In this document: in pieces, positions 11,999 through 28,676 of the stretch
How positions within the stretch are numbered: position 1 is the stretch's first letter
Layout: every line of letters begins with the position of its first letter
From: Rhodococcus spongiicola
GTDB taxonomy: Bacteria > Actinomycetota > Actinomycetes > Mycobacteriales > Mycobacteriaceae
Assembly: GCF_004011835.1 (NCBI RefSeq)
Contig: NZ_RKLN01000001.1
Coordinates: forward strand, 558,001-622,000
Length of the DNA stretch: 64,000 nucleotides
Reading direction: 5' to 3'
Made by a program: the position numbers and the translations under genes
The notes under the pieces: model-generated
The model's database searches: none
Seen by the model: the letters and a program-made list of their open reading frames with translations, nothing else
Told to the model about the DNA's origin: nothing

Positions 11999-12001
11999 AC
12001 C

Positions 12002-12640
12002 TCAGTCCCGCCGGTTGTTACGCAGTTCGGTCGCCAGCACCGCTGCCTGGGTGCGGCGCTGCATGCCGAGCTTGGCGAGCAACCGGGAGACGTAGTTCTT
12101 GATCGTCTTCTCGGCCAGAAACAGTCGCTCGGCGATCTCGCGGTTCGTCAGACCCTCGCCGATGAGGTCGAAGACGGCTCGCTCCTGGTCGGAAAGCTCG
12201 GCGAGCGGGTCGGTGGTGCGTTCGGACCGGATCCGCTGCATGAGCGCGGCCGTCGCGCGACTGTCGAGCAGCGACCCGCCCGCACCGACCGTCCGTACCG
12301 CCGAGATCAGATCCGTACCGAGGATCTGCTTGAGGACGAATCCGGAGGCGCCCGCCATGACAGCGTCGAACAGGGCCTCGTCGTCGGCGTACGACGTGAG
12401 CATGAGACAGCGCAGATCGGGCAGCACAGCCCGGAGTTCGCGACACAGTTCGACGCCGTTGCCGTCGGGAAGCCGGACGTCGAGGACCGCGACGTCGGCG
12501 CCACTGGACGGAATCCGCGCCAGCGCCTCACCGACCGAGGCAGCCTCACCCACCACGGTCAGGTCGGGAGCGCTGCCGAGGAGATCGACCAGCCCACGTC
12601 GCACGATTTCGTGATCATCGACCAGGAAGACTCGCGTCAT
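12002..12640 (-). CDS. dosR: DosR/DevR-like NarL-family response regulator
   Basis: A 212-residue regulator. The receiver domain has Asp8-Asp9 and phospho-acceptor Asp54, the same number as mycobacterial DosR, with Lys in GFVLKQILG. The LuxR-type HTH near 150-205 contains [18 protein letters not shown], nearly the same as the DosR recognition region. I chose the ATG at 12640 because GGAAGGTGG lies 5-8 bp before it, while an upstream GTG at 12649 would sit inside that site. DosR controls the hypoxia/NO dormancy regulon. A DosR-type box lies in this window before the USP gene at 25.8-26.7 kb. It is convergent with its kinase and divergent from htpG. Confidence 0.88.
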
Positions 12641-12797
12641 CGGTGCCACCTTCCGTACTTGTCGGAAGAACGCTACCGCGCCGACCCAACGGACCGAGAT
12701 GGCGGTAGGAGCACGCCCGCTGCGACCTAACTCGCGGAGGCCGCGTCAACCGTCCTAACATTTTTGTCGACAGTTGTGCTGCCGAAGGGAACCACGA

Positions 12798-14744
12798 ATG
12801 ACCACGGGTATCGAACAGCGCGAGTTCCAGACGGAGACTCGCCAGATTCTGGATCTGATGATCCATTCGGTGTATTCCAACAAGGACACCTTTCTCCGCG
12901 AGCTGATCTCGAACTCGTCCGACGCGCTCGACAAGCTCAAGCTCGAGGCATTCCGCGACAAGGACCTCGAGGCCGACACGTCGGATCTGCACATAGAACT
13001 GGCGGTCGACAAGGACACGCGGACGCTCACGGTGCGTGACAACGGCATCGGCATGTCCCGTGACGAGGTGATCGACCTGATCGGCACGCTCGCCAAGTCC
13101 GGAACCGCCGAGCTGCGTCGCAAACTGCGAGAGGCCAAGGACGCCGCGGCGTCGGAGGAGTTGATCGGGCAGTTCGGCATCGGCTTCTATTCGACGTTCA
13201 TGGTCGCCGACAAGGTCACACTGCTGACGCGCAAGGCCGGCGAGAAGCATGGGACACGGTGGGAGTCGAGTGGCGAGTCCACCTACACGATCGAGACCAT
13301 CGACGACGCCCCCCAGGGCACGACGGTGATGCTGCACCTCAAGCCGGAGGATGTCGAGGACCACCTCTACGACTACGCGGCCGAGAACAAACTGCGCGAG
13401 GTCGTCAAGCGCTACTCGGATTTCATCGCGTACCCGATCCGGATGGACGTCGAGCGTCCCGCTCCGAAGAGCGAGGATGAAACCGAGACCGAAACCGACA
13501 CGCCGAAGACGGTCGTCGAGACCGACACGCTGAACTCGATGAAGGCGCTGTGGGCCCGCCCGAAGGACGACGTCACCGAGGACGAGTACAACGAGTTCTA
13601 CAAGCACGTCAGCCATTCCTGGGACGACCCGCTCGAGGTCATCCCGATGAAGGCGGAGGGCACGTTCGAATACCAAGCGCTGCTGTTCATTCCGTCGCAC
13701 GCACCGTTCGACCTGTTCTCGCGCGAGCATCGCGCCGGTATCCACCTGTACGTCAAGCGCGTGTTCATCATGGACGACTGCGAGGAACTCATGCCCGAGT
13801 ACCTGCGCTTCGTCAAGGGCGTGGTCGATGCACAGGACCTGTCGCTCAACGTCTCTCGTGAGATCCTTCAGCAGGACCGGCAGATCCGCGCGATCCGCCG
13901 TCGCCTCACCAAGAAGGTGCTCACCACGATCAAGGACATCATGTCCGCCGATCAGGAGAAGTACCGGACGGTGTGGTCACAGTTCGGTCGGGTGCTCAAA
14001 GAGGGCCTGCTCTCGGACTTCGACAACCGGGAGACCCTGCTCGAGATCTCATCCTTCCAGTCCACCAACAGCGATGACGAGCAGACCACGCTGGCGCAGT
14101 ACGTCGAGCGCATGCAGGACGGCCAGGAGCAGATCTTCTACCTCACCGGCGAGTCCCGCCAACAGCTCGAGGCGTCCCCGCACATGGAGGCGTTCCGTGC
14201 CCGCGGTCTCGAAGTGCTGTTGCTCACCGACCCGGTCGACGAGATGTGGGTGACGTCGGTCCCCGAGTTCGATGGCAAGCCGTTGCAGTCGATCGCGAAG
14301 GGAGAGGTGGACCTCGACACCGAGGAGGAGAAGAAGGATGCCGAGGCCAAACGGGAGGAACAGGACAAGGAGTTCGCCAGCGTCCTGTCTTGGCTGACCA
14401 CGACACTGGAGGAACAGGTCAAGCAGGTGCGTCTGTCGACGCGCCTCACCGACTCCCCCGCGTGCATCGTCGGAGACGAGTTCGGCATGACCCCAGCCCT
14501 CGAGCGGATGTACCGGGCGTCCGGGCAGCAGGTGCCGCACTTCAAACGCATCCTCGAACTCAACCCCACCCACCCGCTCGTGGAGGGTCTACGCAGTGCG
14601 CACGCCGAGCGCGGCGACGATCCGGGCCTAGCCGAGACCGCCGAGTTGCTCTACGGCACTGCACTTCTCGCCGAGGGCGGTGAGCTGGAGGATCCGGCGC
14701 ACTTCGCGAAGCTGCTTGCGAACCGCCTGGCACGCACCATCTAG
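12798..14744 (+). CDS. htpG: Hsp90-family molecular chaperone HtpG
   Basis: A 648-residue ATP-dependent chaperone. The GHKL ATPase signature is intact: YSNKDTFLRELISNSSDAL, DNGIGM, GQFGIGFYS. The middle-domain motif LNVSREILQQD and the C-terminal dimerisation region are present. Length is typical. An acidic, repetitive insert near 220-245 (alternating Glu/Thr) links the N and middle domains. The ATG at 12798 has GAAGGGA upstream, and an earlier ATG at 12774 has no such site. Transcription probably ends at the hairpin at 14768-14806. A decayed copy of the last part of this gene lies about 3 kb downstream. Confidence 0.96.
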   Translation: MTTGIEQREFQTETRQILDLMIHSVYSNKDTFLRELISNSSDALDKLKLEAFRDKDLEADTSDLHIELAVDKDTRTLTVRDNGIGMSRDEVIDLIGTLAKSGTAELRRKLREAKDAAASEELIGQFGIGFYSTFMVADKVTLLTRKAGEKHGTRWESSGESTYTIETIDDAPQGTTVMLHLKPEDVEDHLYDYAAENKLREVVKRYSDFIAYPIRMDVERPAPKSEDETETETDTPKTVVETDTLNSMKALWARPKDDVTEDEYNEFYKHVSHSWDDPLEVIPMKAEGTFEYQALLFIPSHAPFDLFSREHRAGIHLYVKRVFIMDDCEELMPEYLRFVKGVVDAQDLSLNVSREILQQDRQIRAIRRRLTKKVLTTIKDIMSADQEKYRTVWSQFGRVLKEGLLSDFDNRETLLEISSFQSTNSDDEQTTLAQYVERMQDGQEQIFYLTGESRQQLEASPHMEAFRARGLEVLLLTDPVDEMWVTSVPEFDGKPLQSIAKGEVDLDTEEEKKDAEAKREEQDKEFASVLSWLTTTLEEQVKQVRLSTRLTDSPACIVGDEFGMTPALERMYRASGQQVPHFKRILELNPTHPLVEGLRSAHAERGDDPGLAETAELLYGTALLAEGGELEDPAHFAKLLANRLARTI

Positions 14745-15468: not shown

Positions 15469-15629
15469 GTTCGTTCGCCTCTTCTCGTCAGGGGTCTTAC
15501 TTCTCCCGTCCAGCGTGGATTTCGAACCCGATGAATCGGTGAGGGTTCTGTGAAGTTTCGCTCAAGAAATGCCGGTCCAGGCCGGCCGCCACAGGATCGG
15601 AAGGGCAAAACCGACGATCGAGGGTGACG

Positions 15630-16409
15630 ATGGAGAGCATGGATGACATGCCCGCCCTCACACCCCGGGATACCGCCGCACTTCGGGCTTTGGTGGTGGA
15701 CGACGAGCGCCCGTTGGCTGCAGTGGTCGTGAGCTACCTCGAACGGGAGAACTTCGAGGTAGCAGTGTCCTACGACGGGATGGATGCGCTTGCCCGCGCC
15801 CGGGAGTTCGACCCGGACGTCGTGATCCTCGATCTGGGGTTGCCGGGTACGGACGGAATCGAGGTGTGCCGCGAGTTACGGACGTTTTCCGACGCCTACG
15901 TGGTGATGTTGACCGCTCGGATTGCGGAGATGGACAAGATCATCGGTTTGTCCGTCGGCGCCGATGACTACGTCACCAAACCGTTCAGCCCGCGGGAACT
16001 GGTAGCCCGAGTCCGTGCGATGTTGCGTCGACCCCGGAATGCGGCTACAGACGAGCCGCGCTCGCCCGTGCCCGGAGCACTCGAGCCGCGTGGGGGCGAG
16101 CCTCCACCGCGGGTGTTCGGGGCACTGCAAATAGATATCGCGGGTCGTGAGGTTCGTCTCAGCGAGCGTCCGGTGGGTTTGACTCGCACCGAGTTCGATG
16201 TGCTGGCGACGTTGTCGTCTCGGCCTGGCATGGCCTTCAGCCGGCGCCAGTTGATCGACTCGGTATGGGGGGAATCCTGGGTGGGCAACGAGCACCTCGT
16301 CGACGTGCACGTCGGTAATCTGCGCCGCAAGCTCGGCGACGACCCGGTCGCACCCCGGTACGTCACCACCATCCGCGGGATCGGATACCGGATGGGTACC
16401 GGTCGATGA
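15630..16409 (+). CDS. OmpR-family response regulator
   Basis: A 259-residue regulator. The receiver domain has acidic residues Asp24-Asp25 and phospho-acceptor Asp68 in VVILDLGLPG, with Lys in DDYVTKPFSP. A winged-helix DNA-binding domain follows (TRTEFDVLATLSSRPG and VDVHVGNLRRKLGDD). I prefer the ATG at 15630 because GAGGG ends 5 bp before it; the GTG at 15624 overlaps that site. It overlaps the kinase gene by 4 bp (ATGA). Divergent to the SHOCT/Met-rich genes, so it probably regulates that intergenic region. The signal is not known; metal or envelope stress is a reasonable guess. Confidence 0.9.
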   Translation: MESMDDMPALTPRDTAALRALVVDDERPLAAVVVSYLERENFEVAVSYDGMDALARAREFDPDVVILDLGLPGTDGIEVCRELRTFSDAYVVMLTARIAEMDKIIGLSVGADDYVTKPFSPRELVARVRAMLRRPRNAATDEPRSPVPGALEPRGGEPPPRVFGALQIDIAGREVRLSERPVGLTRTEFDVLATLSSRPGMAFSRRQLIDSVWGESWVGNEHLVDVHVGNLRRKLGDDPVAPRYVTTIRGIGYRMGTGR

Positions 16410-17557
16410 AGGCGCCACACTCAACGGGCTCTCTCATCTCGGGCCGGGTGACTGGAGGCCCCGGCATTGGTCTGCGTCTGCTGTTGGCGCAATCGATGGT
16501 GGTCGTGGCGGGTGGTGCAACCTCGTGGGTGGTCGCAGGTCTGGTCGGCCCCTCGCTGTTCCGTGAGCACTTGGAGCAGGCTGGTCTACCGGACTCGTCC
16601 GAGGAGCAGTTCCATGCCGAGCAGGCGTACCGCTCCGCCACGGTAATTTCCCTGACAGTGGCCATCGGGGCGGCTGTCCTGGCTGTGCTTGTCGTGACCT
16701 GGTACTTCAGCCGGCGCCTGCAGCACTCGGTGAACGAGGTGTCCTCAGCTGCCACCGCAGTGGCCGACGGCCGCTATGGCATTCGGGTGTCACCACCACA
16801 CCTGGGTGAGGACTTCAGCGCACTCGCCCGCGCGTTCAACCGAATGGCGACACGGCTCGAATCGGTGGAATCCACCCGCCGTCAGCTGCTCGCCGATCTC
16901 GCCCACGAGATTCGTACCCCCGTATCAGTGCTCGAGGCATACATGGAGGCGCTCGAGGACGGTGTCGAGACACTCGACACCGACACCATGACGATGCTCC
17001 GTGCTCAGATCCGCAGACTCGCCCGGTTTTCGGACGACGTCAGCGCGCTTTCCCATGCTGAAGGGGGCCTGAAATCGATCGAGCCGACATGGGTGGCTCC
17101 CGATGCAGTGATATCCACCGCGGTGATGGCCGCAGCCGACCGGTACGCAGCCAAGGAAGTGGCGCTCACCTCTCATGTTCCCGCGGACCTTCCCCAACTG
17201 TGGGCCGACCCGGTAAGGCTCGGGCAGGTGCTGGGGAACGTACTCGACAACGCTTTGCGCCACACACCCCGGGGTGGTCGAGTGAGCGTGACCGTGGAGC
17301 GAAGACACCAAGTGCTCGTGTTCGCGGTGACCGACAACGGCGACGGAATCCCTGCAGAACATCTCCCGTACCTGTTCGAGCGGTTCTATCGGGTCGATGC
17401 GGCTCGCGACCGTGAGCATGGAGGAGCGGGGATTGGTCTCGCGATCGCCAAGGCGCTCGTCGAGGCGCAGCAGGGTCAAATTGCGGCGAGCAGCCGTGGT
17501 CTCGGACTGGGAAGCACCTTCACCATTACCTTTCCTCTGCACCGGGACCAGAGATGA
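16406..17557 (+). CDS. Membrane sensor histidine kinase, partner of the OmpR-type regulator
   Basis: A 383-residue kinase with two transmembrane helices (about 22-48 and 78-100). They enclose a very short extracytoplasmic loop of about 30 residues containing one His and several acidic residues. A HAMP domain follows (about 101-155), then HisKA with His167 in DLAHEIRTP, and HATPase_c with NVLDNALRH and DNGDGIP. The start codon overlaps the regulator stop. The short sensor loop resembles kinases that sense metal ions or membrane state rather than large ligands. Transcription appears to end before the decayed htpG fragment. Confidence 0.9.
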   Translation: MKAPHSTGSLISGRVTGGPGIGLRLLLAQSMVVVAGGATSWVVAGLVGPSLFREHLEQAGLPDSSEEQFHAEQAYRSATVISLTVAIGAAVLAVLVVTWYFSRRLQHSVNEVSSAATAVADGRYGIRVSPPHLGEDFSALARAFNRMATRLESVESTRRQLLADLAHEIRTPVSVLEAYMEALEDGVETLDTDTMTMLRAQIRRLARFSDDVSALSHAEGGLKSIEPTWVAPDAVISTAVMAAADRYAAKEVALTSHVPADLPQLWADPVRLGQVLGNVLDNALRHTPRGGRVSVTVERRHQVLVFAVTDNGDGIPAEHLPYLFERFYRVDAARDREHGGAGIGLAIAKALVEAQQGQIAASSRGLGLGSTFTITFPLHRDQR

Positions 17558-17618
17558 GGAGGTACCCCGGACGCGACACCGGACGTCGGCACGACTGCCA
17601 CGCTTCGAGCGCGCCCTC

Positions 17619-17815
17619 AGTTGCTCTACGACACGGCGCTTCTCGCTGACGGCTGCGAGTAGAAGGGCTGGCATACTTCGCGAAACCGCTTGCAAAACAA
17701 CGCATTGCCGACAAATGCGGCAGTATGCCGTCGAAACCACGCCGCATGACCACCGTACAGAGAACTACCTCGCGAAACCGGCCATGAATCTCCCTGGTGT
17801 GCGTAGCATCTAGAC
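17619..17815 (+). pseudogene. Decayed fragment of an htpG 3' end
   Basis: Bases 17619-17700 align with the last part of htpG (14645-14731). CAGTTGCTCTACGACACGGC matches GAGTTGCTCTACGGCACTGC, followed by CTTCTCGC, then ACTTCGCGAA and GCTTGC blocks, with indels and an in-frame stop. About 100 bp later, GTGCGTAGCATCTAGACC resembles the real gene end CACGCACCATCTAGACCC. No open frame survives. This is either the remnant of a second htpG or a partial duplication. Seen by eye; not aligned by program. Confidence 0.6.
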
Positions 17816-17860
17816 CATCTCGTCCAGACCATCTCGTTCGATTCCCTTCGGGAGGCCGGC

Positions 17861-18850
17861 GTGCGCGGACTTGGCATCGATCTCGGAACCACGAACACTG
17901 TCGTCGGGACCCTCGAAGACGGGATCGTCCTGAACGAACCGTCTTTCATGCTGGTGCGGAACAAAGATCCGCACCGCGCCCTCGCGATCGGCCACGATGC
18001 GCGGAACCTCATCGGTCGCACGCCTGCAGGGATCACGCAGGTTCGCCCCATGCGCGACGGCGTCGTCGTGGATCTGGACTCGGCCCGAGCCTTCGTCGCA
18101 GCCGTCATCGAGCGGGTCGCCCCGCGCAGGCTGTACCGTCGGCGGCCGAAGGCCATCTTCTCGGCTCCTGCCGGAGCCACTCCCCTCGAGCGTCGCGCAC
18201 TTCTCGAGGTCGGGCATGAGGCCGGCCTGCGGAAGGTCGGCTTGATACCGGAACCGGTGGCGGGCGCAATCGGGTGTGGCATCAATCCACTCGAGGCTCG
18301 TGCCCATCTCGTCGTGAACGTCGGCGGCGGCACCTCTGAAGTCACCGCTGTCTCCTTCGGTGGCGTGATCTCCCACCGCACTTGCCAACTGGCAGGGGAG
18401 GAACTGGACGAGGCGTTGCACCACTACGTACGTGAAGAGCACCACATCATCGTTGGCGAGCTCACCGCCGAACGCGCCAAGATGGGCGCAGCCGACACCG
18501 CCGAGGGACAGTCGCTCGTGGTGGAGGGACTCGACGGCGTCACGGGCCGCGCACGGCTGATCTCCCTGGACGTCGAGGAGGTAGTGGAAGCGCTGCGGCC
18601 GACCACGACCGGAATCGTGCAGACGTTGACAGCCTGCCTGGATGACCTTCCCCCGCAAGCGATCAGCGACGTGATGGCCGAAGGTGTCCTGGTGATCGGG
18701 GGCGGCGCAGGGCTCCGCGGACTCTCTCACCTGTTCGAGGAGTCGTTCGGCCTCCCGGTGAAGACGGCCGAACGGCCGCTGACCTGCGTCGCCGAGGGGG
18801 CTACCGCCTGCCTCGATCACCCGGAGCTCGTCGCCGCCTACAGCAGCTGA
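17861..18850 (+). CDS. MreB-family bacterial actin homologue
   Basis: A 329-residue protein, close to MreB length (about 335-345). Actin-fold nucleotide motifs are in order: phosphate 1 GIDLGTTNTVV (5-15); ERRALLEVGHEAG (110-122) and IPEPVAGAIGCGI (129-141), both typical of MreB; phosphate 2 VNVGGGTSEV (152-161) with Asn153 where MreB usually has Asp; adenosine motif VLVIGGGAGLRGL (276-288); and the C-terminal PLTCVAEG (306-313). Length excludes full Hsp70. No N-terminal amphipathic helix is evident. The start is a GTG with GGGAGG upstream. MreB forms membrane filaments that guide wall elongation. Mycolic-acid actinobacteria usually lack it. It is convergent with a SEDS-PBP fusion gene. Confidence 0.82.
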   Translation: MRGLGIDLGTTNTVVGTLEDGIVLNEPSFMLVRNKDPHRALAIGHDARNLIGRTPAGITQVRPMRDGVVVDLDSARAFVAAVIERVAPRRLYRRRPKAIFSAPAGATPLERRALLEVGHEAGLRKVGLIPEPVAGAIGCGINPLEARAHLVVNVGGGTSEVTAVSFGGVISHRTCQLAGEELDEALHHYVREEHHIIVGELTAERAKMGAADTAEGQSLVVEGLDGVTGRARLISLDVEEVVEALRPTTTGIVQTLTACLDDLPPQAISDVMAEGVLVIGGGAGLRGLSHLFEESFGLPVKTAERPLTCVAEGATACLDHPELVAAYSS

Positions 18851-18864
18851 CCACCGAGGCGGCG

Positions 18865-18982
18865 CCTCGCGAACTCACCGAGGCGGTGCCTCGCGAACTC
18901 ACCGAGACGTGCCCCGCGAACTCACCAAGGCGGCGCCTCGCGAACTCACCGAGACGTGCCCCGCCCTAGGTAATTGGGGCGG
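18865..18982. repeat. Tandem array A, 23-24 bp units
   Basis: Five units of the form CCTCGCGAACTCACCGAGGC begin at 18865, 18889, 18912, 18936 and 18959, with periods 24, 23, 24 and 23. Every second unit is a CCCCGCG variant. Each contains GCCTCG/CGAGGC-type complementary arms. The array starts directly after the MreB-like stop codon. Confidence 0.8.
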
Positions 18983-18987
18983 GGCAC
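18956..18987. terminator. Perfect 11-bp hairpin between convergent genes
   Basis: GTGCCCCGCCC (18956-18966) pairs with GGGCGGGGCAC (18977-18987) across a 10-nt loop. It is placed to terminate the MreB-like transcript and could act on both strands. Confidence 0.7.
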
Positions 18988-19028
18988 CGCGACGTCACAG
19001 ATGCGGTGCCTCGCCTGAAGTCACCGTG

Positions 19029-19100
19029 CCGGGCGCCGACGGATCCCCCCACCTCTCCGGTCTCGGCGCCGGCCGTCACCGGCAAGGCGGCGAGCTGACC
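19029..19100 (-). pseudogene. Decayed duplicate of the transpeptidase KTG region
   Basis: About 70 bp here match the sequence at about 19454-19523 inside the fusion gene, including the identical GGCGCCGACGGATCC block and the GGCGAGCTG end. Translated on the minus strand it reads SGQLAALPVTAGAETG against GGQLASLPITAGSKTG in the intact protein. The active-site Lys has become Glu and no long frame remains. It lies about 180 bp beyond the stop of the functional gene. Confidence 0.65.
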
Positions 19101-19145
19101 GGATGAGGTCGTAGCCTCCCACAGCGGTTGATCGCCCAGGCGGCG

Positions 19146-19295
19146 CCTCGCGGGTATCACCGAGGCCGCGCCTCGCGGATATCACCGAGGCCGCGCCTCG
19201 CGGGTATCACCGAGGCCGCGCCTCGCGGATATCACCGAGGCCGCGCCTCGCGGGTATCACCGAGGCCGCGCCTCGCGGGTATCACCGAGGCGGCG
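19146..19295. repeat. Tandem array B, six 25-bp units
   Basis: Units CCTCGCGGGTATCACCGAGG plus CCGCG begin at 19146, 19171, 19196, 19221, 19246 and 19271 with an exact 25-bp period. The central GGGTATC and GGATATC forms alternate over the first five units. GCCTCG and CGAGGC arms give each unit hairpin potential. The last unit contains the TGA stop codon of the fusion gene (19284-19282). There are no unique spacers, so it is not a CRISPR array. Confidence 0.9.
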
Positions 19296-22137
19296 CCGGG
19301 ACGGGACGTTCCGCGAGGTAGCGCTCGAGGATCGACATGGCCACGGGGCCGGACGTCGCCGATCCGAATCCCCCGCCACGGACCATTACTGTGACGACGA
19401 TTTCGGGAGACTCGAAGGGCACGACCGCGGAGAACCAGGCGTCGAGACCATCGCCCGGCGCCGACGGATCCTCCGCCGTTCCGGTCTTGGAGCCAGCCGT
19501 GATCGGCAGACTGGCGAGCTGCCCACCCGTACCGGCAGCGGCCGAAGCCCGCATCCCGGCGCGGACCGGACCGAGCTGATCGGCGAAGGGAAGCGGATCA
19601 GGATCCGCCGTCGGAATCGGCGCGCCCTCCCCGGTTCCGTAGGCGGCGGCGAGTTGCGGAGTGACCATCGCCCCGGTGGCGATGCCGGACGTCCACCCTG
19701 CCACTTGCAGCGGGGTCGCCGTCACTGTGCCCTGCCCGATCCCCATCAACACCGTCGAGCCCGGGTACCAGGTGGCCCCGATCTCGCCGACCGTCTCCGG
19801 TGTCCCCAGGAAACCCGCGGACTCGCCCGGCAGATCGATCCCTGACCGTCGCCCCACACCCAATTGGTCGGCGACAGTAGCGATCTGCTCGGGACCGAGC
19901 ATGAGGGCGAGCTTGTAGAAGTACACGTTGTCGGACCATTGGATCGCCCGCAACAGGTTGTTCGGACCCATCGGCTGCCAGTTCGCGAACGTGTGTCCTC
20001 CGTAGGTGAAAGCGCCACCGGTCGGGATCGCCAGGTCCGGATCCAGTACCTGATCATCCGCGTTCGCCGAAGCGACAACGATCTTGAACGTCGAGCCGGG
20101 TGGCGCGGCGGTCTGGAACGCGTGGTTGAGCATCTTGCTGGGTCCCGGGCCCTCTGTTTGGGCCGCCAGCGCGACGGCGTCGACTGGAGGACCGTAGACG
20201 TTGTTGTCGTACCCGGGAACGCTGGCGAGCGCCAGCACTGCGCCGGTGCGCGCGTCCATCACAAGCGCCGCGCCCAGGTCACCCCCGCTGCCGCGGACCG
20301 CCTGCGCCAAGGACTCCGTCGCCAGGTTCTGCAATCCGATGTCCAGGTGCAGCCGCAGGTTGTGGCCCGGTACCGGATCTACCCGCTCTCCCGCGCCGAC
20401 CGGATTTCCCCTCGGATCGACGTATACGCACTGCTTGCCGTCGGTGCCGCGCAGCAGCGCGTCGTATTGCTTCTCGATTCCTGCACTCCCGACCCGCGAC
20501 CCGAGTGCGAGCTCCGGCCAGCGTTCCATGTCGTCCGGATCGCCGACACTGACGTATCCGAGGACGGAGGCGAGCGTATCGCCGTACGGATATTGCCGAC
20601 GGCCGGAGGGAAAGACGAGCACGCCTGGGATCTGCGCATCGATGATTCGCTGAGCCTGATCAGGTGCGACCCTGCCGACGACGGTCTGCATTTCCCCTAC
20701 GCCGCGTTCAGCCAAGATGTTCGTCAGCTCTTCATGAGGAATCCCGAGGGAGGCGAGGAGCGCACCGCGCGAACCGGAGTCGTTCTCGTCGAACATTCCG
20801 GTGACCACCGAAATGGAGTATTCGGGAGCGTTGACCGCCAACGGCACGCCGTTCCGGTCGACGATTTGACCACGTTCGGCAGGCAGGCGGACACAGCGAG
20901 TCATCTGGCTATCGCTCAACGCACGCAGCTCCGGACCTCGATCGGTCTGCAACTGCCAGGTGAACACCGACATCGCGACGAGGAGTGCGGTCACCGCGGC
21001 GGTACCCGCCGTCATGCCCCGGGGCCGTCGCCTGCGTACGGACGGCTCGGCCCACAGGGGCCGAGCGACACCGTCACGGCGCACCGCGAGCACCAGCCCG
21101 ATCGCGACGAACCCGACGAGTGCGACCGTGCCCCCGTAGCTGAACATCGGGAGCGGCATTCCGGTGTGGGGCAGCAGCGACAGGCTCGCCCCGATCGACA
21201 GCACCGCGTGGATCCCGAACAGCCCGCCGATACCCGCGGCCACGAGGGCAGCTTCCTTGGTTCTCGCCCGTCGGGCGGCGAGCGCGGCGCGCCAGGTGAT
21301 CACCAAGCTGGCCGCCACGACTGCAATGCCGGCGAACAGTCCCCACCCGTACACGACGCTCGCGAACGCGAGGTCGTGCTCCGCTTCGGGAAGATACTGA
21401 GCCCTCAGGTCGTACAAGGGGTCTCGTGCCAGACCCCACAGCCCACCGCTGCCTACGGCGATGTCGGCCTGAAGCGATGCCCACCCCGACCCGCTCGGGT
21501 CGGCATCGCTCGACACGAACACCTGGATCCGTTCGAGTTGGTACGGACGGAGAAACAGCGCGGCAATGGGCAGCGAGGCAAGTCCCAGAGCGAACAGCGG
21601 CAACAGCGGCAACATCGGCACCCTGGCGAGGACCAGCATCAGCGCCGCAACCGCTGCCAGCACCACGGCGCTCGACAGGTCGGGCTGCAGGGCGACCAGT
21701 GCGACCACGCCGGCTGCGATCGCCAACGTCGCCGCCAACCGACCGATGTTGTAGCCGCCGGCCAGGACGGTCGCCGCCACCATGACCAGACCGAGCTTGG
21801 CGACTTCGGCCGGCTGAATGGTGAACACACCGAAATCCAGCCAGCGTTGCGCACCCTTGACCGACACCCCGACGAGCGGCACGGCCACCAGCATCGCGAC
21901 CGACACCCCGAGGGTCACCAGTCCGAATCGTCGCAGGTTGCTCACCCGCATCCGCGACACCAGGAACATCACCCCGAGGCCGACGACGGCAAAACCCAGG
22001 TGACGGACCGCTTGCGATGTGAGTCCGATCGACACCAAGTTGAGGAGGCCGAAGATGGTGAGAACGACCGCCGCAATGACGATCCAGGGATCGGATTCGC
22101 GATCGTGTCCCTCCACACGACCACCGTCCCCGCGCAT
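19282..22137 (-). CDS. Single-chain SEDS glycosyltransferase (RodA/FtsW)-class B penicillin-binding protein fusion
   Basis: A 951-residue polytopic membrane protein joining two enzymes normally made separately. Residues about 17-355 are a SEDS lipid II polymerase: GAQRWLDFGVFTIQPAE (95-111), QPDLSSA (151-157), the conserved acidic loop LPEAEHDLAFA (249-259), and GMPLPMFSYGGT (326-337). A basic linker (352-374) leads to a further helix (377-395) and a class B PBP. Its transpeptidase motifs are complete: SxxK at Ser682-Lys685, SxN at Ser735-Asp-Asn737, and KTG at 884-886. The pair should polymerise and cross-link peptidoglycan outside the membrane. It is coupled to the upstream gene by TGATG and convergent with the MreB-like gene. 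Whether it acts in elongation or division is not shown. Confidence 0.93.
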   Translation of the reverse strand: MRGDGGRVEGHDRESDPWIVIAAVVLTIFGLLNLVSIGLTSQAVRHLGFAVVGLGVMFLVSRMRVSNLRRFGLVTLGVSVAMLVAVPLVGVSVKGAQRWLDFGVFTIQPAEVAKLGLVMVAATVLAGGYNIGRLAATLAIAAGVVALVALQPDLSSAVVLAAVAALMLVLARVPMLPLLPLFALGLASLPIAALFLRPYQLERIQVFVSSDADPSGSGWASLQADIAVGSGGLWGLARDPLYDLRAQYLPEAEHDLAFASVVYGWGLFAGIAVVAASLVITWRAALAARRARTKEAALVAAGIGGLFGIHAVLSIGASLSLLPHTGMPLPMFSYGGTVALVGFVAIGLVLAVRRDGVARPLWAEPSVRRRRPRGMTAGTAAVTALLVAMSVFTWQLQTDRGPELRALSDSQMTRCVRLPAERGQIVDRNGVPLAVNAPEYSISVVTGMFDENDSGSRGALLASLGIPHEELTNILAERGVGEMQTVVGRVAPDQAQRIIDAQIPGVLVFPSGRRQYPYGDTLASVLGYVSVGDPDDMERWPELALGSRVGSAGIEKQYDALLRGTDGKQCVYVDPRGNPVGAGERVDPVPGHNLRLHLDIGLQNLATESLAQAVRGSGGDLGAALVMDARTGAVLALASVPGYDNNVYGPPVDAVALAAQTEGPGPSKMLNHAFQTAAPPGSTFKIVVASANADDQVLDPDLAIPTGGAFTYGGHTFANWQPMGPNNLLRAIQWSDNVYFYKLALMLGPEQIATVADQLGVGRRSGIDLPGESAGFLGTPETVGEIGATWYPGSTVLMGIGQGTVTATPLQVAGWTSGIATGAMVTPQLAAAYGTGEGAPIPTADPDPLPFADQLGPVRAGMRASAAAGTGGQLASLPITAGSKTGTAEDPSAPGDGLDAWFSAVVPFESPEIVVTVMVRGGGFGSATSGPVAMSILERYLAERPVPAPPR

Positions 22138-23354
22138 CAGCAGGTCACTTTCTCGGCAGGCACGTACAGCGGCTCCGAGGCAGCGACTGCCGGGGCGCTT
22201 GTGATCGCAGCGACACCCAGAGCGAAACCGGGCGGCAGGAACGTCTTACTGAGGCCGTACACCTCATCACGACCCGGTTCCACTCGCATGGTGACGTCAC
22301 CACCGGCGTGCACTTCGCCGGAGCAGCGGTCGTAAACGTTCAGCTTCCAGGTGACCGTGTCGACGGGCACCGCCGGGTCGAGCCGAACGTCCACTCGTAC
22401 CGCACACGATTGACCAGGACTACACGATCCGTCCGCGAAACTCGATGTGACGCTGGTGATCTGGCCCGCGTTGGGCGGGGCACCGGTCTGGACGGCGGCT
22501 GGCTCCACGGCGCCGGGCGCGGCCATGGCCGGGTCCGCGGGCACGACCGGCGGCGGCGACACCGGCCTGAGGGTGTTCTGATCCGCGAGGTCCACCGGAT
22601 TGACGACGGTGTCCCAGCCCTTCTTTACCTCCGTCCATGCGCGGGGACCCGTCACTGCCGCCGTGAGGACAACTACGATCGCGACGAAGGTAAACACAAC
22701 CTGATTCCGGGATGGCCGCCACCGACGGTGGTGCCATCCAGTTCGCACCGGCGGATACCAGCCTGTGGTTGACACGAGCGACCCGGCCGGCACATTGGTC
22801 GAATCTTCCCCCGCCCGATCATCCGGAAGCGGCCGTTCCATTGTCGCCCTGACGAGTTCGCCGATCTGGCGCCTCCGCCTGGTCTCGTCGGCCGGATCGA
22901 GCTCGGGAGCGATTGCTTGACCAACCCGGTGCACTTGGTCCCCCAGATTTGTTGTCTCTGATACCGATTCGATCACAAGATCACCGAACTCCGGCCCTCG
23001 ACAGTTCGTCGCGATACCGCGAAGCAGGCTGGTGATCGCTTCGTCCATCTCGATGGACGGTGATCCTCTCCGAGTGCCCTCGATCGTGAGCCGTCCTCCG
23101 CCGGAGACCATCACGGCGTCGTCCCGCAGGATGGTCGGACGACCACCCCCGCTACCCGCCAGGTCGAGCTGGTCGGCCAAATCCGTGACCAGTTGCGCAG
23201 CCTGTGCCGGAGTCAACCTCGTGAACGCGAGCAGCATCGGGAGTGCGATACCGGCAGAGCCGCCACCCGAGTCGTCGTCGTTCGGTTCAGACGGTTCTGG
23301 TCCAGCTGAGGGCTCACTGCTGCTCCCGTGGACTCCCAAGGCTGCTTCGTTCAT
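22137..23354 (-). CDS. Bitopic membrane protein with cytosolic and Cys-containing extracellular domains, RodZ-like topology
   Basis: A 405-residue protein not assigned to a family. I chose ATG 23354 because upstream translation is low-complexity repeat. The cytosolic part (1-215) has an acidic Ser/Pro-rich start, then a helical region with LPMLLAFTRLTPAQAAQLVT and a strand-rich segment with repeated GGGR. One transmembrane helix spans 217-236. The outside part has a Pro-rich spacer (265-298) and a beta-rich domain (299-405) with Cys311, Cys317, Cys344 and C-terminal Cys405, probably paired. It overlaps the SEDS-PBP start by one base, so the two are made together. A scaffold linking a cytosolic filament to the wall enzyme, as RodZ or MreC do, is an inference from topology and context. 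Confidence 0.7.
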   Translation of the reverse strand: MNEAALGVHGSSSEPSAGPEPSEPNDDDSGGGSAGIALPMLLAFTRLTPAQAAQLVTDLADQLDLAGSGGGRPTILRDDAVMVSGGGRLTIEGTRRGSPSIEMDEAITSLLRGIATNCRGPEFGDLVIESVSETTNLGDQVHRVGQAIAPELDPADETRRRRQIGELVRATMERPLPDDRAGEDSTNVPAGSLVSTTGWYPPVRTGWHHRRWRPSRNQVVFTFVAIVVVLTAAVTGPRAWTEVKKGWDTVVNPVDLADQNTLRPVSPPPVVPADPAMAAPGAVEPAAVQTGAPPNAGQITSVTSSFADGSCSPGQSCAVRVDVRLDPAVPVDTVTWKLNVYDRCSGEVHAGGDVTMRVEPGRDEVYGLSKTFLPPGFALGVAAITSAPAVAASEPLYVPAEKVTC

Positions 23355-23746: not shown

Positions 23747-24643
23747 CTAGGTGCCGGGCGGCACGATCAGCACCGGGCAGTCCGCGGTGTGCAGCATCGC
23801 CCGGCTGGTCGAACCCAGCAGCATCCCCCTGAAGCCGCCGCGCCCACGGGTGCCGACGACGATCAACTGGGCCTGCTCGGCGTACTCACTGAGGACGCGC
23901 ACCGGCCGGTCGCGCGCGACGACCCGTTCGACGGTGACATCGGGGTAGCGCTCCTTCCATCCGGCGAGCCGCTCGGACAGCACCACTTCCTCCCCGGTCT
24001 GGATGCGGCTCCATTGCGGGTCGTCGGGGGTGGCACCGAGGGACGGCTGGACGCTCACATCGCTCCACACGTTGACCGCGATGAGATTTGCGCCCCGGAT
24101 CGCCGCCTCCTCGAAGGCGGCCCCGACCGCCGGCTTGCACGACTCGGAGCCGTCGACACCCACGACGATCGGCCCCTCCGTCGGCGGGAGGCCGTCGAGG
24201 GTCCGACCGCGGACCACCGTGACGCGGCACTCGGCGTGCGCAGCTACCGCCGCAGTGACGGACCCGACGACGAGTCCGGCGATCTCTCCGTGTCCGTGCG
24301 ACCCAAGCACCACCATCCAGGCCTGCTTCGACAGGTCGATCAGGGTTGGGGCGGGACGGCCATCGATCTGTTCGGTGGTGATGTCGATGGAACCGATGTC
24401 CTCGGCGGTCTGCCGAGCGAGCACCTGCGCGCTGTCGAGACGCGAGCGTGCCGTGTCGCGTAGCTCGTCCTGAAAACTCCGGGCCAGGTACGGCTCGGAG
24501 TAATAGAACGCGGGGATGTGCACGGCGGTGACGATGTGCAGGCGACGCTGGTGGACGGCGGCGGCGCGGGATGCCCACACCACCGCGTTCGAGGCCGCTT
24601 CGGACCCGTCGACAGCAACGACGATCGCTTCGGTTGCGCTCAT
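23747..24643 (-). CDS. Tandem universal stress protein (two UspA domains)
   Basis: A 298-residue protein with two UspA folds. The first starts IVVAVDGSEAASNAVVWA and ends with GSHGHGEIAGLVVGSVT; the second starts IVVGVDGSESCKPAV and ends GTRGRGGFRGMLLGSTS. Both G2xG9xG(S/T)-type ATP-binding loops are present, so nucleotide binding is likely. This two-domain form is characteristic of mycobacterial dormancy USPs. It follows the LLM oxidoreductase gene by 36 bp on the same strand, so an operon is likely, and a strong hairpin ends it. Confidence 0.93.
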   Translation of the reverse strand: MSATEAIVVAVDGSEAASNAVVWASRAAAVHQRRLHIVTAVHIPAFYYSEPYLARSFQDELRDTARSRLDSAQVLARQTAEDIGSIDITTEQIDGRPAPTLIDLSKQAWMVVLGSHGHGEIAGLVVGSVTAAVAAHAECRVTVVRGRTLDGLPPTEGPIVVGVDGSESCKPAVGAAFEEAAIRGANLIAVNVWSDVSVQPSLGATPDDPQWSRIQTGEEVVLSERLAGWKERYPDVTVERVVARDRPVRVLSEYAEQAQLIVVGTRGRGGFRGMLLGSTSRAMLHTADCPVLIVPPGT

Positions 24644-24679
24644 GGATTCGGCTTCTCCTTCACACGCGCCCGGTAGTCG

Positions 24680-25720
24680 TCAGTCAACGATCGCGCGCAG
24701 CTTCTCGACCTGCGCGACCCGGCCGGCCCGGTCTGCGGCCAGCGGGGCCACGGTCAGCGTCGTCACCCCGGCCGCCTCGAACGCGGCGACCCGCTCCTTG
24801 ACGAAGCTCTCGGTGCCGATGAGCGATACCGCCCGCACGAGTTCATCGGGAACCGCCGCCGTGGCTTCCTCCTTCTTTCCGGCGAGGTAGAGGTCCTGGA
24901 TCTTCTCGGCCTCCTCCTCGTAGCCGTACCGGCAGGCGAGGTCGTTGTAGAAGTTCTTGCCCTTGGCACCCATTCCGCCGATGTACAGCGCGAGATGAGG
25001 CTTGATCCACTGCAGCATCGGCTCGACATCGTCTCCGATCGCCAGCGCTGGACCTGCGTAGATGTTCAGCTCACCCAGGCTCGGGTCCCGCTTGGCCTTG
25101 CCGGCTGCGAGCGCCTCGCCCCACACCGACTCCGCCTTCTCCGGGTGGAAGAAGATCGGCTCCCAGCCCTCGGCAATCTCCGCAGTGAGCGCAACGTTCT
25201 TGGGGCCGAGCGAGGCAATGACGACCGGAATTTGTTCGCGCACAGGGTGGTTGATCAGCTTGAGTGGCTTGCCCAGCCCGGTGCCCTGATCGGCGGGCAG
25301 CGGGATCTTGTAGTACTTGCCGTCGTACTGGACCTTCTCCCGACGCCACACCTGGCGGCAGATGTCGACCAACTCGCGGGTGCGGCCGAGAGGGGCGTCG
25401 TACTTGACGCCGTGGAACCCCTCGATCACCTGCGGGCCCGATGCCCCGATGCCCATCACGAATCGACCGTTGGAGACGTAGTCGAGGCCCGCCGCCGTCA
25501 TCGCGGTCAGGCTCGGGGTGCGGGTGTAGATCTGGAAGATGCCGGAGGCCAGTTGGATCGTCGAGGTCTTGGCCGCGAGGTAGCCGAGGGCACTGACGGC
25601 GTCGAACGAATACGCCTCGGGGACGAAGATGATGTCCAGGCCTGCCCGTTCGAGATCCGCGACTTCTTCGCTAGCCTCCGCGAATCCTCCGCTGTAGTTC
25701 AAAGCCATACCGATGCGCAC
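24680..25720 (-). CDS. LLM-class (F420-dependent type) oxidoreductase
   Basis: A 346-residue TIM-barrel protein of the luciferase-like monooxygenase family, in the branch that uses coenzyme F420 in actinobacteria. It starts at a GTG (MRIGMALNYSGGF). Family segments include DIIFVPEAYSFDAVSALGYL, IQLASGIFQIYTRTPSLTAM and RFVMGIGASGPQVIEGFHG, and the C-terminal LTVAPLAAD. It sits between two USP genes on the same strand, a typical stress or dormancy context. Substrate unknown; some relatives reduce enones or act on cell-wall lipids, which cannot be told from sequence here. Confidence 0.9.
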   Translation of the reverse strand: MRIGMALNYSGGFAEASEEVADLERAGLDIIFVPEAYSFDAVSALGYLAAKTSTIQLASGIFQIYTRTPSLTAMTAAGLDYVSNGRFVMGIGASGPQVIEGFHGVKYDAPLGRTRELVDICRQVWRREKVQYDGKYYKIPLPADQGTGLGKPLKLINHPVREQIPVVIASLGPKNVALTAEIAEGWEPIFFHPEKAESVWGEALAAGKAKRDPSLGELNIYAGPALAIGDDVEPMLQWIKPHLALYIGGMGAKGKNFYNDLACRYGYEEEAEKIQDLYLAGKKEEATAAVPDELVRAVSLIGTESFVKERVAAFEAAGVTTLTVAPLAADRAGRVAQVEKLRAIVD

Positions 25721-25771
25721 TGCTGCGACCCCATTCCGTGTTCCAAGTAACGGACGTTACGACACAGGACT

Positions 25772-26698
25772 CTACGACCGCTCGGGCCGCACCACCATCA
25801 CAGGGCACTTCGCCTTCTGCACCAGCTCGTTGCTCGTCGACCCGAGCAGCAGTCCACGGAACCCGCCCCGACCACGGCTGCCGACGACCACGAGCTGCGC
25901 CTTCTGCGACCACGCGAGCAGATGGGTGCGCGGCCCGTCGATGTACAGCTCGCGGCGGACCTCGACGTCCGGGTACCGCTCACTCCATCCCGCGAGACGC
26001 TCGGCGAGCTCCACCTGCTGTGCATCCTCGAAGGCCCTCGGGTCAACGATCGCGCTGCGCCCGCCGGCGAGCGTGCCGTGCGGGGTGTCGCTCCACGCGT
26101 GGATCGCCACCAGCGGGACACCACGCTGCGCCGCCTCGTCGAACGCCACCGCGGTGGCGCGCTCGCTCGTGGGGCTGCCGTCGATCCCGACGACGACGGG
26201 ACCGTCGCTGGGAACCTCGCCGTTGCGCTGGTGGACCACGACCACGGGGCACACGCCGTGGCTGGCGGCGTTCACCGCGGTCGAGCCGATGCCACCCGCC
26301 GCACCGCTCCCCGATGCCCCGAGTACGAGTGCCCGCGAATCCTCGGAGAGCGACACGAGCCAGCGAGCACCGCCGAGGGTGGAGATCTCGGTGGAGATGT
26401 CGAGGTCGGGCGACACCTCGCGCGCCGCGGCGGCTGCGCGGGCCAGGATCTCCTTGCCTTCGTCCTCCATCCAGTCGAAGATGCCGGCCACGTCGAGATA
26501 GGGCGCTCCGTAGGTATAGGACGAAAAGTTCAGGGCGTGGATGATCCGCAACGACAGGTTGCGGTCCGCGCACATCCGCGCAGCCCAGACGACGGCCGCC
26601 TGTGCGGCGTCCGACCCGTCGACCCCGACCACGACCGCGTTCGCGTCCCGTGCGGCCGACGGTTCCTTGACTCTGTACTCCATGCCCTCCGAGGTCAT
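25772..26698 (-). CDS. Tandem universal stress protein, putative DosR target
   Basis: A 308-residue protein with two UspA domains: VVVGVDGSDAAQAAVVWAAR with ATP loop LGASGSGAAGGIGSTA, then VVVGIDGSPTSERATA with GSRGRGGFRGLLLGSTS. I chose ATG 26698 because GAGAGGGTG lies about 7 bp before it; the ATG at 26683 has its purine tract too close, and translation from 26794 lacks support. A DosR-type box is centred about 145 bp upstream of the start. The LLM oxidoreductase gene follows after 51 bp, so all three minus-strand genes may be co-expressed in hypoxia. Confidence 0.9.
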   Translation of the reverse strand: MTSEGMEYRVKEPSAARDANAVVVGVDGSDAAQAAVVWAARMCADRNLSLRIIHALNFSSYTYGAPYLDVAGIFDWMEDEGKEILARAAAAAREVSPDLDISTEISTLGGARWLVSLSEDSRALVLGASGSGAAGGIGSTAVNAASHGVCPVVVVHQRNGEVPSDGPVVVGIDGSPTSERATAVAFDEAAQRGVPLVAIHAWSDTPHGTLAGGRSAIVDPRAFEDAQQVELAERLAGWSERYPDVEVRRELYIDGPRTHLLAWSQKAQLVVVGSRGRGGFRGLLLGSTSNELVQKAKCPVMVVRPERS

Positions 26699-26834
26699 CC
26701 CGCTCACCCTCTCCCGTGTACCCGAAATCGGTGCGGCAGTCGTGGTCGATCCCTTGATCGGGCCGATCGCAGTGCCACCCTCGACGTTAGTCACTCGCGC
26801 GGGGGTACGTGGGGATCAGTCAGTCCCGCACTGC

Positions 26835-26853
26835 TCAGGACCAAAGTCCCTGC
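26835..26853 (-). promoter_or_regulatory. DosR-type box upstream of the USP gene
   Basis: On the minus strand AGGGACTTTGGTCCT (26851-26837) closely fits the mycobacterial DosR consensus, a GGGACTT/GTCC inverted repeat. A weaker GGGACCT-GGTC site lies nearby at 26871-26884 on the plus strand. Paired strong and weak sites are typical of DosR promoters. A DosR-like regulator is encoded in this window. Confidence 0.6.
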
Positions 26854-26946
26854 CGCCGAGGCCCAAGGTCGGGACCTGCGGTCGGCGGGCGCGAGCCCGG
26901 TCACATTTAATTGGAATCGCATTTACCAGTTTTTACTGTCGGGTTC

Positions 26947-27411
26947 ATGCAGTTGACGCAGTTCACCGACCTGGGCCTGCGGATCGTCATGCGCCTGGCG
27001 GCCGGGTCCGCCACCGACGCAGGATCGGCACCCAGCACTCGCGTGATCGCGCAGCAGCTCGCCGTGTCATACACCCATGCCACGAAAGTTGTTGCGCGAC
27101 TGGGTGAACTCGGCATCGTCACCACCCGCCGGGGCCGCGGCGGCGGACTGGCCATCACGGAGTTGGGCCGGACGGCGGCGCTCGGCTGGCTGACGCGACA
27201 GCTCGAGGGCGACGCCGAGGTCGTCACGTGCGAGGGCGACAACCCTTGCCCGCTGCGCCACGGCTGCCGACTCCGCTCCGCCCTGCGCGACGCCCAGAAC
27301 GCCTTCTACGACGCCCTGGACGCCCTGACGGTCCAGGACCTCACCACCGCTGGATCGTCCCCCGAGAACGTGCTGCTGACGCTCACCGCGCCGACAGCGA
27401 ACAAGCCCTGA
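26947..27411 (+). CDS. nsrR: Rrf2-family regulator, NsrR-type
   Basis: A 154-residue Rrf2 transcription factor. The start MQLTQFTDLGLRIVMRLA is the usual NsrR N-terminus; extra upstream codons do not align. The winged helix includes IAQQLAVSYTHATKVVARLG and the wing RRGRGGGLAI. Three Cys for an iron-sulfur cluster are at 95, 101 and 107, the C-x5-C-x5-C spacing of NsrR. NsrR holds a 4Fe-4S cluster that reacts with NO and derepresses hmp. The flavohemoglobin gene follows 41 bp later. An AT-rich tract at 26907-26941, rare in this genome, is the likely operator and promoter. Confidence 0.9.
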   Translation: MQLTQFTDLGLRIVMRLAAGSATDAGSAPSTRVIAQQLAVSYTHATKVVARLGELGIVTTRRGRGGGLAITELGRTAALGWLTRQLEGDAEVVTCEGDNPCPLRHGCRLRSALRDAQNAFYDALDALTVQDLTTAGSSPENVLLTLTAPTANKP

Positions 27412-27452
27412 GTACCCGTAAGACCGCAGCACCCGACCGACAGGAGAATCCG

Positions 27453-28676
27453 ATGCTCACCGAGGCCTCGAAGGAAATCGTCCGCGCGACGCTGCCCGTT
27501 GTGGGAGCGGCGATCGGCGACATCACGCCGCTGTTCTACCGCAAGATGTTCGCAGCCCACCCGGAACTCGAGCGCGACCTGTTCAACCGTGGCAACCAGC
27601 GTCAGGGTGAGCAGCAGAAGGCGCTGGCCGGGGCCATCGCCGCGTTCGCGACACTGCAATCGGAACCCGACCAGGCGCGCGTCGACGCGATCCTGTCCCG
27701 TATCGCCCACAAGCACGCCTCGCTGGGCATCACCGCGGACCAGTACGAGATCGTCCACAAGTACCTGTTCGAGGCGATCGTCGAGATCCTCGGCGAGGCC
27801 GTGACGCCGGAGGTCGCGTCCGCCTGGGACGAGGTCTACTGGCTGATGGCCGAGACCCTCATCTCGATGGAGGCCCGACTCTACGAGCAGGCCGGCGTCG
27901 AGGCCGGTGACGTGTGGCACCCCGTTCGGGTGGTGCGCCGGACCCTCGAATCGACCGACACCGCCTCGTTCACGCTTGCCGCGAAGGACGGGTCCGCGTT
28001 GCCGACGTTCGCACCGGGCCAGTACATTTCGGTCGCCGTGCATCTACCCGACGGAGCCCGACAGATCCGTCAGTACAGCCTCGCGTGTGGCCCCACCGAC
28101 GACGAGTGGCGGATCACCATCAAGCGGATCACTGCCCACACCCTGCCCGACGGCTCCACCGCTCCGGCCGGTGAAGTGTCGAACTTCCTGTACGACAACG
28201 TCTTCGAGGGCGACGAGTTGACCGTGTCGCTCCCCTTCGGTGATCTGGTCCTGCCGGAGGACGATGCACCGCTGCTGCTGATCTCGGCCGGGATCGGTTG
28301 CACGCCGATGATCGGCATGCTCGAGCACCTCGCCTCGACCGACGACAAGCGCAGCGTGTCGGTGCTGCACGCGGATCGCTCCGCGGCACACCATGCACAC
28401 CGCGCCGAACTCACCGAACTGGTCGAACGGCTGCCATCCGGCATCATGCACCGTTGGTACGAGGACCTGGGTGCGCGCGAGGCCTTCGCCAGGACCCGGC
28501 TGGGTCGCGCCGATCTGGCCGACGTCACCCTGGAGCCCGGCACCCGCGCCTTCCTGTGCGGTCCGCTGCCGTTCATGCTCGCGATGAAGAAGTCTCTCAT
28601 CGCGCGTGACGTGCCCGCCGAGAACATCCACTACGAGGTGTTCGGCCCGGACAGCTGGTCCGGCACGTCCGCATAG
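27453..28676 (+). CDS. hmp: Flavohemoglobin, nitric oxide dioxygenase
   Basis: A 407-residue protein that oxidises NO to nitrate with O2 and NAD(P)H. The N-terminal globin domain (1-140) has the proximal-His region IAHKHASLGITADQYEIV. The FAD domain has RQYSLA, and the NAD domain has LLISAGIGCTPMIGML and FLCGPLPFM. Length fits the family (about 400). ATG 27453 has AGGAG 6 bp upstream. Its position directly after nsrR indicates NO-induced expression. A hairpin at 28690-28731 follows. Confidence 0.95.
   Translation: MLTEASKEIVRATLPVVGAAIGDITPLFYRKMFAAHPELERDLFNRGNQRQGEQQKALAGAIAAFATLQSEPDQARVDAILSRIAHKHASLGITADQYEIVHKYLFEAIVEILGEAVTPEVASAWDEVYWLMAETLISMEARLYEQAGVEAGDVWHPVRVVRRTLESTDTASFTLAAKDGSALPTFAPGQYISVAVHLPDGARQIRQYSLACGPTDDEWRITIKRITAHTLPDGSTAPAGEVSNFLYDNVFEGDELTVSLPFGDLVLPEDDAPLLLISAGIGCTPMIGMLEHLASTDDKRSVSVLHADRSAAHHAHRAELTELVERLPSGIMHRWYEDLGAREAFARTRLGRADLADVTLEPGTRAFLCGPLPFMLAMKKSLIARDVPAENIHYEVFGPDSWSGTSA

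Follow-up and report, generated by a model that had tools for sequence, protein, structure and literature searches.

The closest described counterpart of the locus reported here is the Rod complex, for which passages of a study in Escherichia coli describe MreB and an activated RodA-PBP2 as a minimal elongasome that works without MreCD and RodZ once RodA-PBP2 is activated, and also report that segments of RodA and PBP2 bind MreB (PMC13327600). Synthetic RodA-PBP2 fusions are functional in E. coli according to an excerpt of a further study (PMC6207328), and natural SEDS-PBP fusions in a single open reading frame are already in print, the relevant passages giving the Rhodococcus RHA1 genome as reference (PMC10449877). 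Among actinobacteria, excerpts of earlier work report the mre cluster as absent from most simple members (PMC4255298) and mreB as absent from mycobacterial and corynebacterial genomes (PMC3296230). A module that unites MreB, such a fusion and a bitopic protein was not found described in the open-access literature that was searched.

A module of this kind is present in the window, by which is meant the whole stretch of 64,000 nucleotides of Rhodococcus spongiicola DNA that was analysed. An earlier note had proposed an MreB-like actin, RodA-PBP2 as one polypeptide and a bitopic protein at about the positions given below; all three genes were confirmed by open reading frames and domain searches, the synthase running as a single uninterrupted frame of 951 aa with both SEDS and PBP domains. 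It is argued here, with a probability of roughly 0.6, that the three genes encode a natural minimal elongasome. The features of the locus are as follows.

17861..18850, + strand: homologue of the MreB-family actins in a clade of its own (329 aa from a GTG start; PF06723, E 4e-92)
18317..18319, + strand: codon of Asn153, at the site of the MreB phosphate-2 Asp (alignment of canonical and module rows)
19282..22137, - strand: peptidoglycan synthase of 951 aa with RodA and PBP2 in a single chain (one frame encodes the SEDS, PBP-dimer and transpeptidase domains)
21082..22092, - strand: RodA-like half, residues 16-352 (Pfam domain match)
21019..21081, - strand: junction of the two halves in the cytosol, residues 353-373, containing Leu361-Trp362 and Pro372-Arg373; proposed as MreB dock
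19285..21018, - strand: PBP2-like half, residues 374-951 (TM helix at about 374-392)
22137..23354, - strand: candidate bitopic adaptor, encoded by the leading gene of the operon (ATG at 23354, giving 405 aa; the open frame extends to 23633)
22824..23261, - strand: predicted cytosolic kinase C-lobe (KIND-like) domain, residues 32-177 (model with Foldseek and VIA matches)
22644..22700, - strand: TM segment of the bitopic protein, residues 219-237 (hydropathy 2.35 over 19 residues; the sole hydrophobic segment)
22152..22472, - strand: predicted outer beta-sandwich of the bitopic protein, residues 295-401 (whole-protein model; matches to Ig-like and other beta-sandwiches)

The MreB gene and the bitopic-fusion operon are convergent, tail to tail, and within the operon the two genes overlap, with one base common to the bitopic stop codon and the fusion ATG. 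The MreB and fusion genes are separated by a gap of 431 bp, which is far shorter in most genomes of the family; in the window it is filled by tandem arrays of 24-25 bp units (core GGCGGCGCCTCGCG) at 18852-18964 and 19131-19297. A promoter scan found none against 0.6 expected, and a terminator scan found two against 2.8 expected.

The co-occurrence of the genes was followed in an even draw of 401 genomes of the family, using thresholds of E <= 1e-80 for the fusion and E <= 1e-30 for the module MreB. Each gene was found in 50 of the 401 genomes and the two sets were identical, which answers the suggestion of the earlier note that independent profiles would speak against a link. In all 50 the two genes lie on the same contig in convergent orientation, with a median gap of 28 bp between match ends. 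Neither gene reached these thresholds in the other 351 genomes, in keeping with the claim that the set is unexpected in mycolic-acid bacteria, and the module was present in six of the 31 genera sampled. Within the genus of the window, the fusion was found in 12 of 14 genomes (in one, G431, in pieces), and the two genomes without it also lack the MreB. The fusion and the module MreB occurred in the same nine of 249 genomes of the order, where module MreBs had at least 50% identity and the next MreBs 40%; the fusion of G177 lies in two contig pieces and that of G147 is cut by a contig end. When 197 genomes of the class were searched with MreB alone, five matches of at least 53% identity were obtained, the window's included (the next was at 41%), and the four new genomes all carry both the fusion and the bitopic gene. 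In a phylum-wide sample the fusion was found in one of 396 genomes, namely the window's own. The family, order and class samples overlap (genome G000 is in each) and some of their genomes are identical to named genomes, so that these counts are not additive. That the module MreB and the fusion share the same 50 family genomes and the same nine order genomes is beyond chance, and the observation of the three-gene set is confirmed as real.

Gene order was compared in named genomes, where 80 of 565 confirmed places were listed and at least 23 of these (L078-L100) belong to the module clade. They derive from Rhodococcus/Prescottella, Pseudonocardia, Geodermatophilus, Blastococcus, Modestobacter, another member of the Geodermatophilaceae, Nocardioides and an actinomycete MAG. 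In 22 of the 23 listed loci the gene immediately upstream of the fusion is the bitopic one, the contig of the remaining one (L084) starting 80 bases before the fusion, and MreB is directly downstream in 21, with one locus (L095) ending at a contig end and one (L098) forming an exception. The same arrangement was seen in 29 loci from 29 of the 50 family genomes, with the bitopic gene directly upstream of the fusion in all and MreB in place in 28. A further class-level family, beyond Rhodococcus, Pseudonocardia, Geodermatophilaceae and Nocardioides, also carries the trio, and the genes flanking it in the window are common only to its closest relatives among the loci compared. Neighbouring genes within a single genus do not count as independent evidence; what makes the observation strong is that the trio is conserved across families. 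As the three genes are kept together across families while their neighbours change, a filament-adaptor-synthase set is supported, and the earlier interpretation in these terms is thereby supported in part.

A few loci depart from this order. In the Blastococcus-type genome G217 (locus L070, the same genome as L098), MreB is broken in two frames at about 17043-17966, some 7 kb from the fusion and with several genes between them. In L085 and G431 the frames of both the fusion and MreB are broken, and sequencing error and decay are indistinguishable there. Second copies of the fusion, with no second MreB match at threshold, were seen at G634:C3:55984-58818 and G663:C2:210751-213594 (L210); at the latter the bitopic gene is short and the stretch contains no MreB.

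The window protein is an MreB-family actin both by its PF06723 match and by a near full-length alignment with a solved MreB (E 9.6e-73). Module MreBs (29 of 82 rows) form one clade with an SH-aLRT of 100, far from the other included proteins. The genome of the window has one strong MreB match; two weaker ones, scoring 62 bits (frame of 616 aa) and 26 bits (frame of 678 aa), look like DnaK-type relatives. The protein had been credited with all nucleotide motifs, and it does keep the phosphate-1 Asp (Asp7), Glu131 and the adenosine glycines, but in the alignment the phosphate-2 Asp is replaced by Asn153. Of 30 module MreBs, 26 hold Asp at this site and three, near relatives, hold Ser, the window protein being the one with Asn, while canonical MreBs have the Glu131 equivalent in 53 of 53 and the phosphate-2 Asp in 52 of 53. 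One or the other residue, near-invariant in other MreBs, is absent from 10 of the 30 module proteins; both are residues that we take to act in ATP hydrolysis.

In the fusion, a RodA-type SEDS polymerase and a PBP2-type transpeptidase are present in one chain, with Pfam matches to FTSW_RODA_SPOVE (E 9.6e-60), PBP_dimer (4.2e-31) and Transpeptidase (1.2e-47); its top NCBIfam match, TIGR03423 pbp2_mrdA, is below the cut-off (390.6 of 455 bits). The presumed catalytic residues are kept, namely SEDS Asp255, the transpeptidase SxxK Ser682-Lys685, Ser735 and KTG Lys884. Two other SEDS genes occur in the genome of the window, one of RodA type in a kinase/phosphatase neighbourhood and one of FtsW type among mur and fts genes. 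The SEDS halves of the module (30 of 84 rows) and its PBP halves (30 of 85 rows) each form one branch with an SH-aLRT of 100, far from the other included proteins. That the fusion arose from the RodA/PbpA or FtsW of the same genome was not supported, these proteins being outside the module clade on long branches. In 47 of 57 listed non-module loci, as read from ORF lengths, separate genes for PBP2 and then RodA are found, and the module has RodA first. The C-terminus of RodA and the N-terminus of PBP2 are both cytosolic, and a RodA-first fusion therefore requires no additional membrane segment.

The junction between the two halves is strongly conserved. Leu361-Trp362 and Pro372-Arg373 are identical in all 59 fusions, the length is 21 residues in 52 of them, and on average the junction is as conserved as the transpeptidase domain (mean of 0.752 for both). 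Leu-Trp was found in none of 57 other SEDS tails, many of which are only 6-12 residues long. The two MreB-binding segments of E. coli correspond to this single joint in the natural fusion, and by analogy the junction with its invariant Leu-Trp is proposed as an MreB dock.

The bitopic protein of the window has no Pfam or NCBIfam family match. A model of the whole protein (mean pLDDT 64.7, which is modest) predicts a cytosolic alpha/beta domain, a TM helix and an outer beta-sandwich, in which four Cys are invariant (8 rows). The cytosolic domain modelled alone with 23 sequences reached a pLDDT of 89.4 and a pTM of 0.84, and each of the 50 Foldseek rows and 50 VIA-align rows listed for this model was a protein kinase or Spire KIND; the predicted structure has a kinase C-lobe fold of the KIND type, in which the C-lobe stands alone. 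An ortholog in G177 (L077) is longer at the N-terminus, where phmmer gives an alignment to kinases, and it matches PF07714 at E 4.2e-5 (score 23.4 bits, cut-off 23.1), PAK5 at 3.7e-5 and a PknB-type kinase at 1.2e-4. Among 16 bitopic-family proteins scanned, one reached a kinase Pfam family and Pfam saw no kinase in the other 15. A profile of 23 domains found PAK kinases at E of about 0.03, ranked after one unrelated match at 0.024, and a profile of the whole family matched no solved structure at E 10. As to the kinase N-lobe and the HRD/DFG motifs, the window protein begins about 30 residues before the C-lobe domain and the motif positions are substituted. From model and alignments, the best interpretation of the family is that of a pseudokinase which has probably lost its N-lobe. 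Neither the window protein nor the 16 scanned proteins had a Pfam KIND match, and independent loss of the N-lobe is more likely than common descent with the eukaryotic KIND. The protein had also been called RodZ-like; this stands for its topology alone and not for its fold, as Pfam and NCBIfam found no HTH and the model shows a kinase C-lobe instead. An origin from MviN was likewise set aside, the bitopic profile finding no match in the C-terminal part of the MviN of the window's genome.

Other components of the Rod complex were sought in the module genomes. MreC was found in none of the seven good ones by the single profile PF04085, which matched eight of 14 control genomes and missed Thermotoga maritima, so a divergent MreC could escape it. 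Overall PF04085 matched in two of nine module genomes, the drafts G147 and G177. A second MreB, of canonical type, lies on the MreC contig of G147, and both kinds of MreB system can thus coexist in one genome. HTH_25 gave weak matches in all nine module genomes, and its three matches in the genome of the window are on proteins with no TM-like segment.

It is because the conserved junction lies at the MreB-binding segments, MreC was not found and the HTH_25 proteins of the window's genome have no TM-like segment that the set is read as a natural minimal elongasome. Under this reading the RodA-PBP2 chain would polymerise and crosslink peptidoglycan, and membrane filaments of the divergent MreB would form a complex with it by docking on the short cytosolic junction, with its Leu-Trp motif, between the two halves. 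The bitopic protein, with its predicted non-catalytic kinase C-lobe, membrane stem and outer beta-sandwich, may substitute for MreC, MreD and RodZ, the inner part holding the filament or the synthase and the outer part sensing or positioning the wall. Since growth of the hosts is otherwise polar and they retain a RodA and an FtsW of their own, the set would most likely serve to build wall at non-polar sites or in a certain cell state, such as the rod-coccus change, budding or a thick resting wall. A wider proposal is put forward tentatively, at somewhat less than even odds: the set would be an evolutionarily separate second actin-guided wall machine in polar growers, with an MreB that in some lineages does not hydrolyse ATP, a RodA-PBP2 joint serving as actin dock, and a half-kinase protein that replaces MreC, MreD and RodZ and couples growth of the wall to signalling by Ser/Thr kinases. 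As the existence of SEDS-PBP fusions was already known, the set would be an elongasome variant with a new type of adaptor.

The surroundings of the module in the window are of a stress type. At 10316-14744 and 23747-28676 there are a NarL/MadR-type response regulator with a sensor kinase, HtpG, an F420-dependent LLM oxidoreductase, an NsrR-like repressor, a flavohaemoprotein and two universal-stress-type proteins (assigned by eye). Dormancy control was considered and rejected, as no DosR box (by the consensus we assumed) was found in the window at up to three mismatches; a shorter, looser form gave 18 matches in the window against 37.7 expected, and a palindrome, GGGACTTTGGTCCT, at 26837-26850 has one mismatch to this loose form. 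Just upstream of MreB and on the same strand, at 15624-17557, an OmpR-type response regulator is paired with a sensor kinase; the pair was rejected as part of the module, its regulator, the member that was compared, not being conserved beside the module in the loci compared. A defence origin was rejected, with no PADLOC match at E 0.001, as was a phage origin, PHROGs matching MreB only, in two families of unknown function.

Excerpts of work on Streptomyces describe an MreB complex that thickens spore walls and comprises PBP2, a RodA-like protein and the kinase PkaI (PMC4416010); a comparable role for the module would set it apart from the minimal elongasome less in its parts than in its timing and control. 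A kinase-derived bitopic family fits such a role, budding Geodermatophilaceae, in which part of a published source annotates MreB (PMC9686282), are among the hosts, and the stress-type genes lie nearby in the window. The latter are, however, common only to near relatives, and the assumed DosR box was not found in the window. To our knowledge Rhodococcus is not a spore former, and we consider this explanation unlikely. The fusion could also be a back-up synthase of the pole, recruited there by DivIVA like the usual RodA, with MreB and the bitopic protein merely regulating it. Passages on Corynebacterium describe an overlap of RodA-PBP2 and class A PBPs in polar growth (PMC8262863), and 351 of the 401 family genomes manage without the set, but a polar back-up leaves both the complete MreB coupling and the invariant junction at the MreB-binding segments unexplained and is improbable. 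That linkage alone carries three neighbours with no joint function is very improbable: adjacent genes are gained and lost together and genomes of one genus are not independent samples, but the trio is intact in Rhodococcus, Pseudonocardia, Geodermatophilaceae, Nocardioides and one further class-level family while its neighbours change, and its domains match known partners.

If the natural minimal elongasome is the correct reading, the module would be nature's own counterpart of the minimal elongasome that was reached in E. coli by mutation, and a second growth system in bacteria that have been described as MreB-free tip growers. The fixed one-to-one synthase and the candidate dock of 21 residues would make the coupling of actin and synthase directly testable. 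The module would also be a candidate for placing wall away from the pole in rod-coccus and budding actinobacteria, and its bitopic protein a candidate wall-synthesis adaptor that is a pseudokinase reduced to the C-lobe.

Compared with known systems, the module is like the Rod complex and the E. coli minimal elongasome in having MreB together with RodA and PBP2 activities, and its junction corresponds to the two MreB-binding segments described in passages of PMC13327600. Unlike the Rod complex, it has a single synthase chain with RodA first, an adaptor of another fold and no MreC found, its MreB, SEDS and PBP rows each fall into a clade of their own, and its hosts are polar growers. Its fusion very probably belongs to the same family as the natural single-ORF SEDS-PBP fusions of PMC10449877; the passages of that paper on these fusions mention neither MreB, a bitopic gene nor co-occurrence, and the fusions used there were synthetic constructs. 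The Streptomyces SSSC is likewise an actinobacterial complex of MreB, PBP2 and SEDS with a Ser/Thr-kinase component. Whereas the SSSC consists of an mreBCD cluster (MreC and MreD included), a separate PBP2, the RodA-like Sfr and the active kinase PkaI, in the module no MreC was found, the synthase is one chain and the adaptor, a predicted C-lobe without kinase motifs, is inactive by motif. RodZ and the bitopic protein both have a small cytosolic domain, one TM segment and an outer beta-rich domain, but RodZ has an HTH where the bitopic protein has the predicted kinase C-lobe. With the KIND domain of Spire, which ranked first in Foldseek for the isolated domain (E 5.9e-3, TM 0.57), it has in common a kinase fold of the C-lobe only and a position beside an actin system, although identity is 17-18% and the Z score is tied with ordinary kinases. 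Finally, mycobacterial MviN (MurJ) has a pseudokinase domain according to an excerpt of PMC12599244, and both it and the bitopic protein have a kinase-like domain, a TM segment and an outer domain in the same order and in a context of wall synthesis; MviN is, in the same excerpt, a flippase with a two-lobe pseudokinase, whereas the bitopic protein would carry the C-lobe alone.
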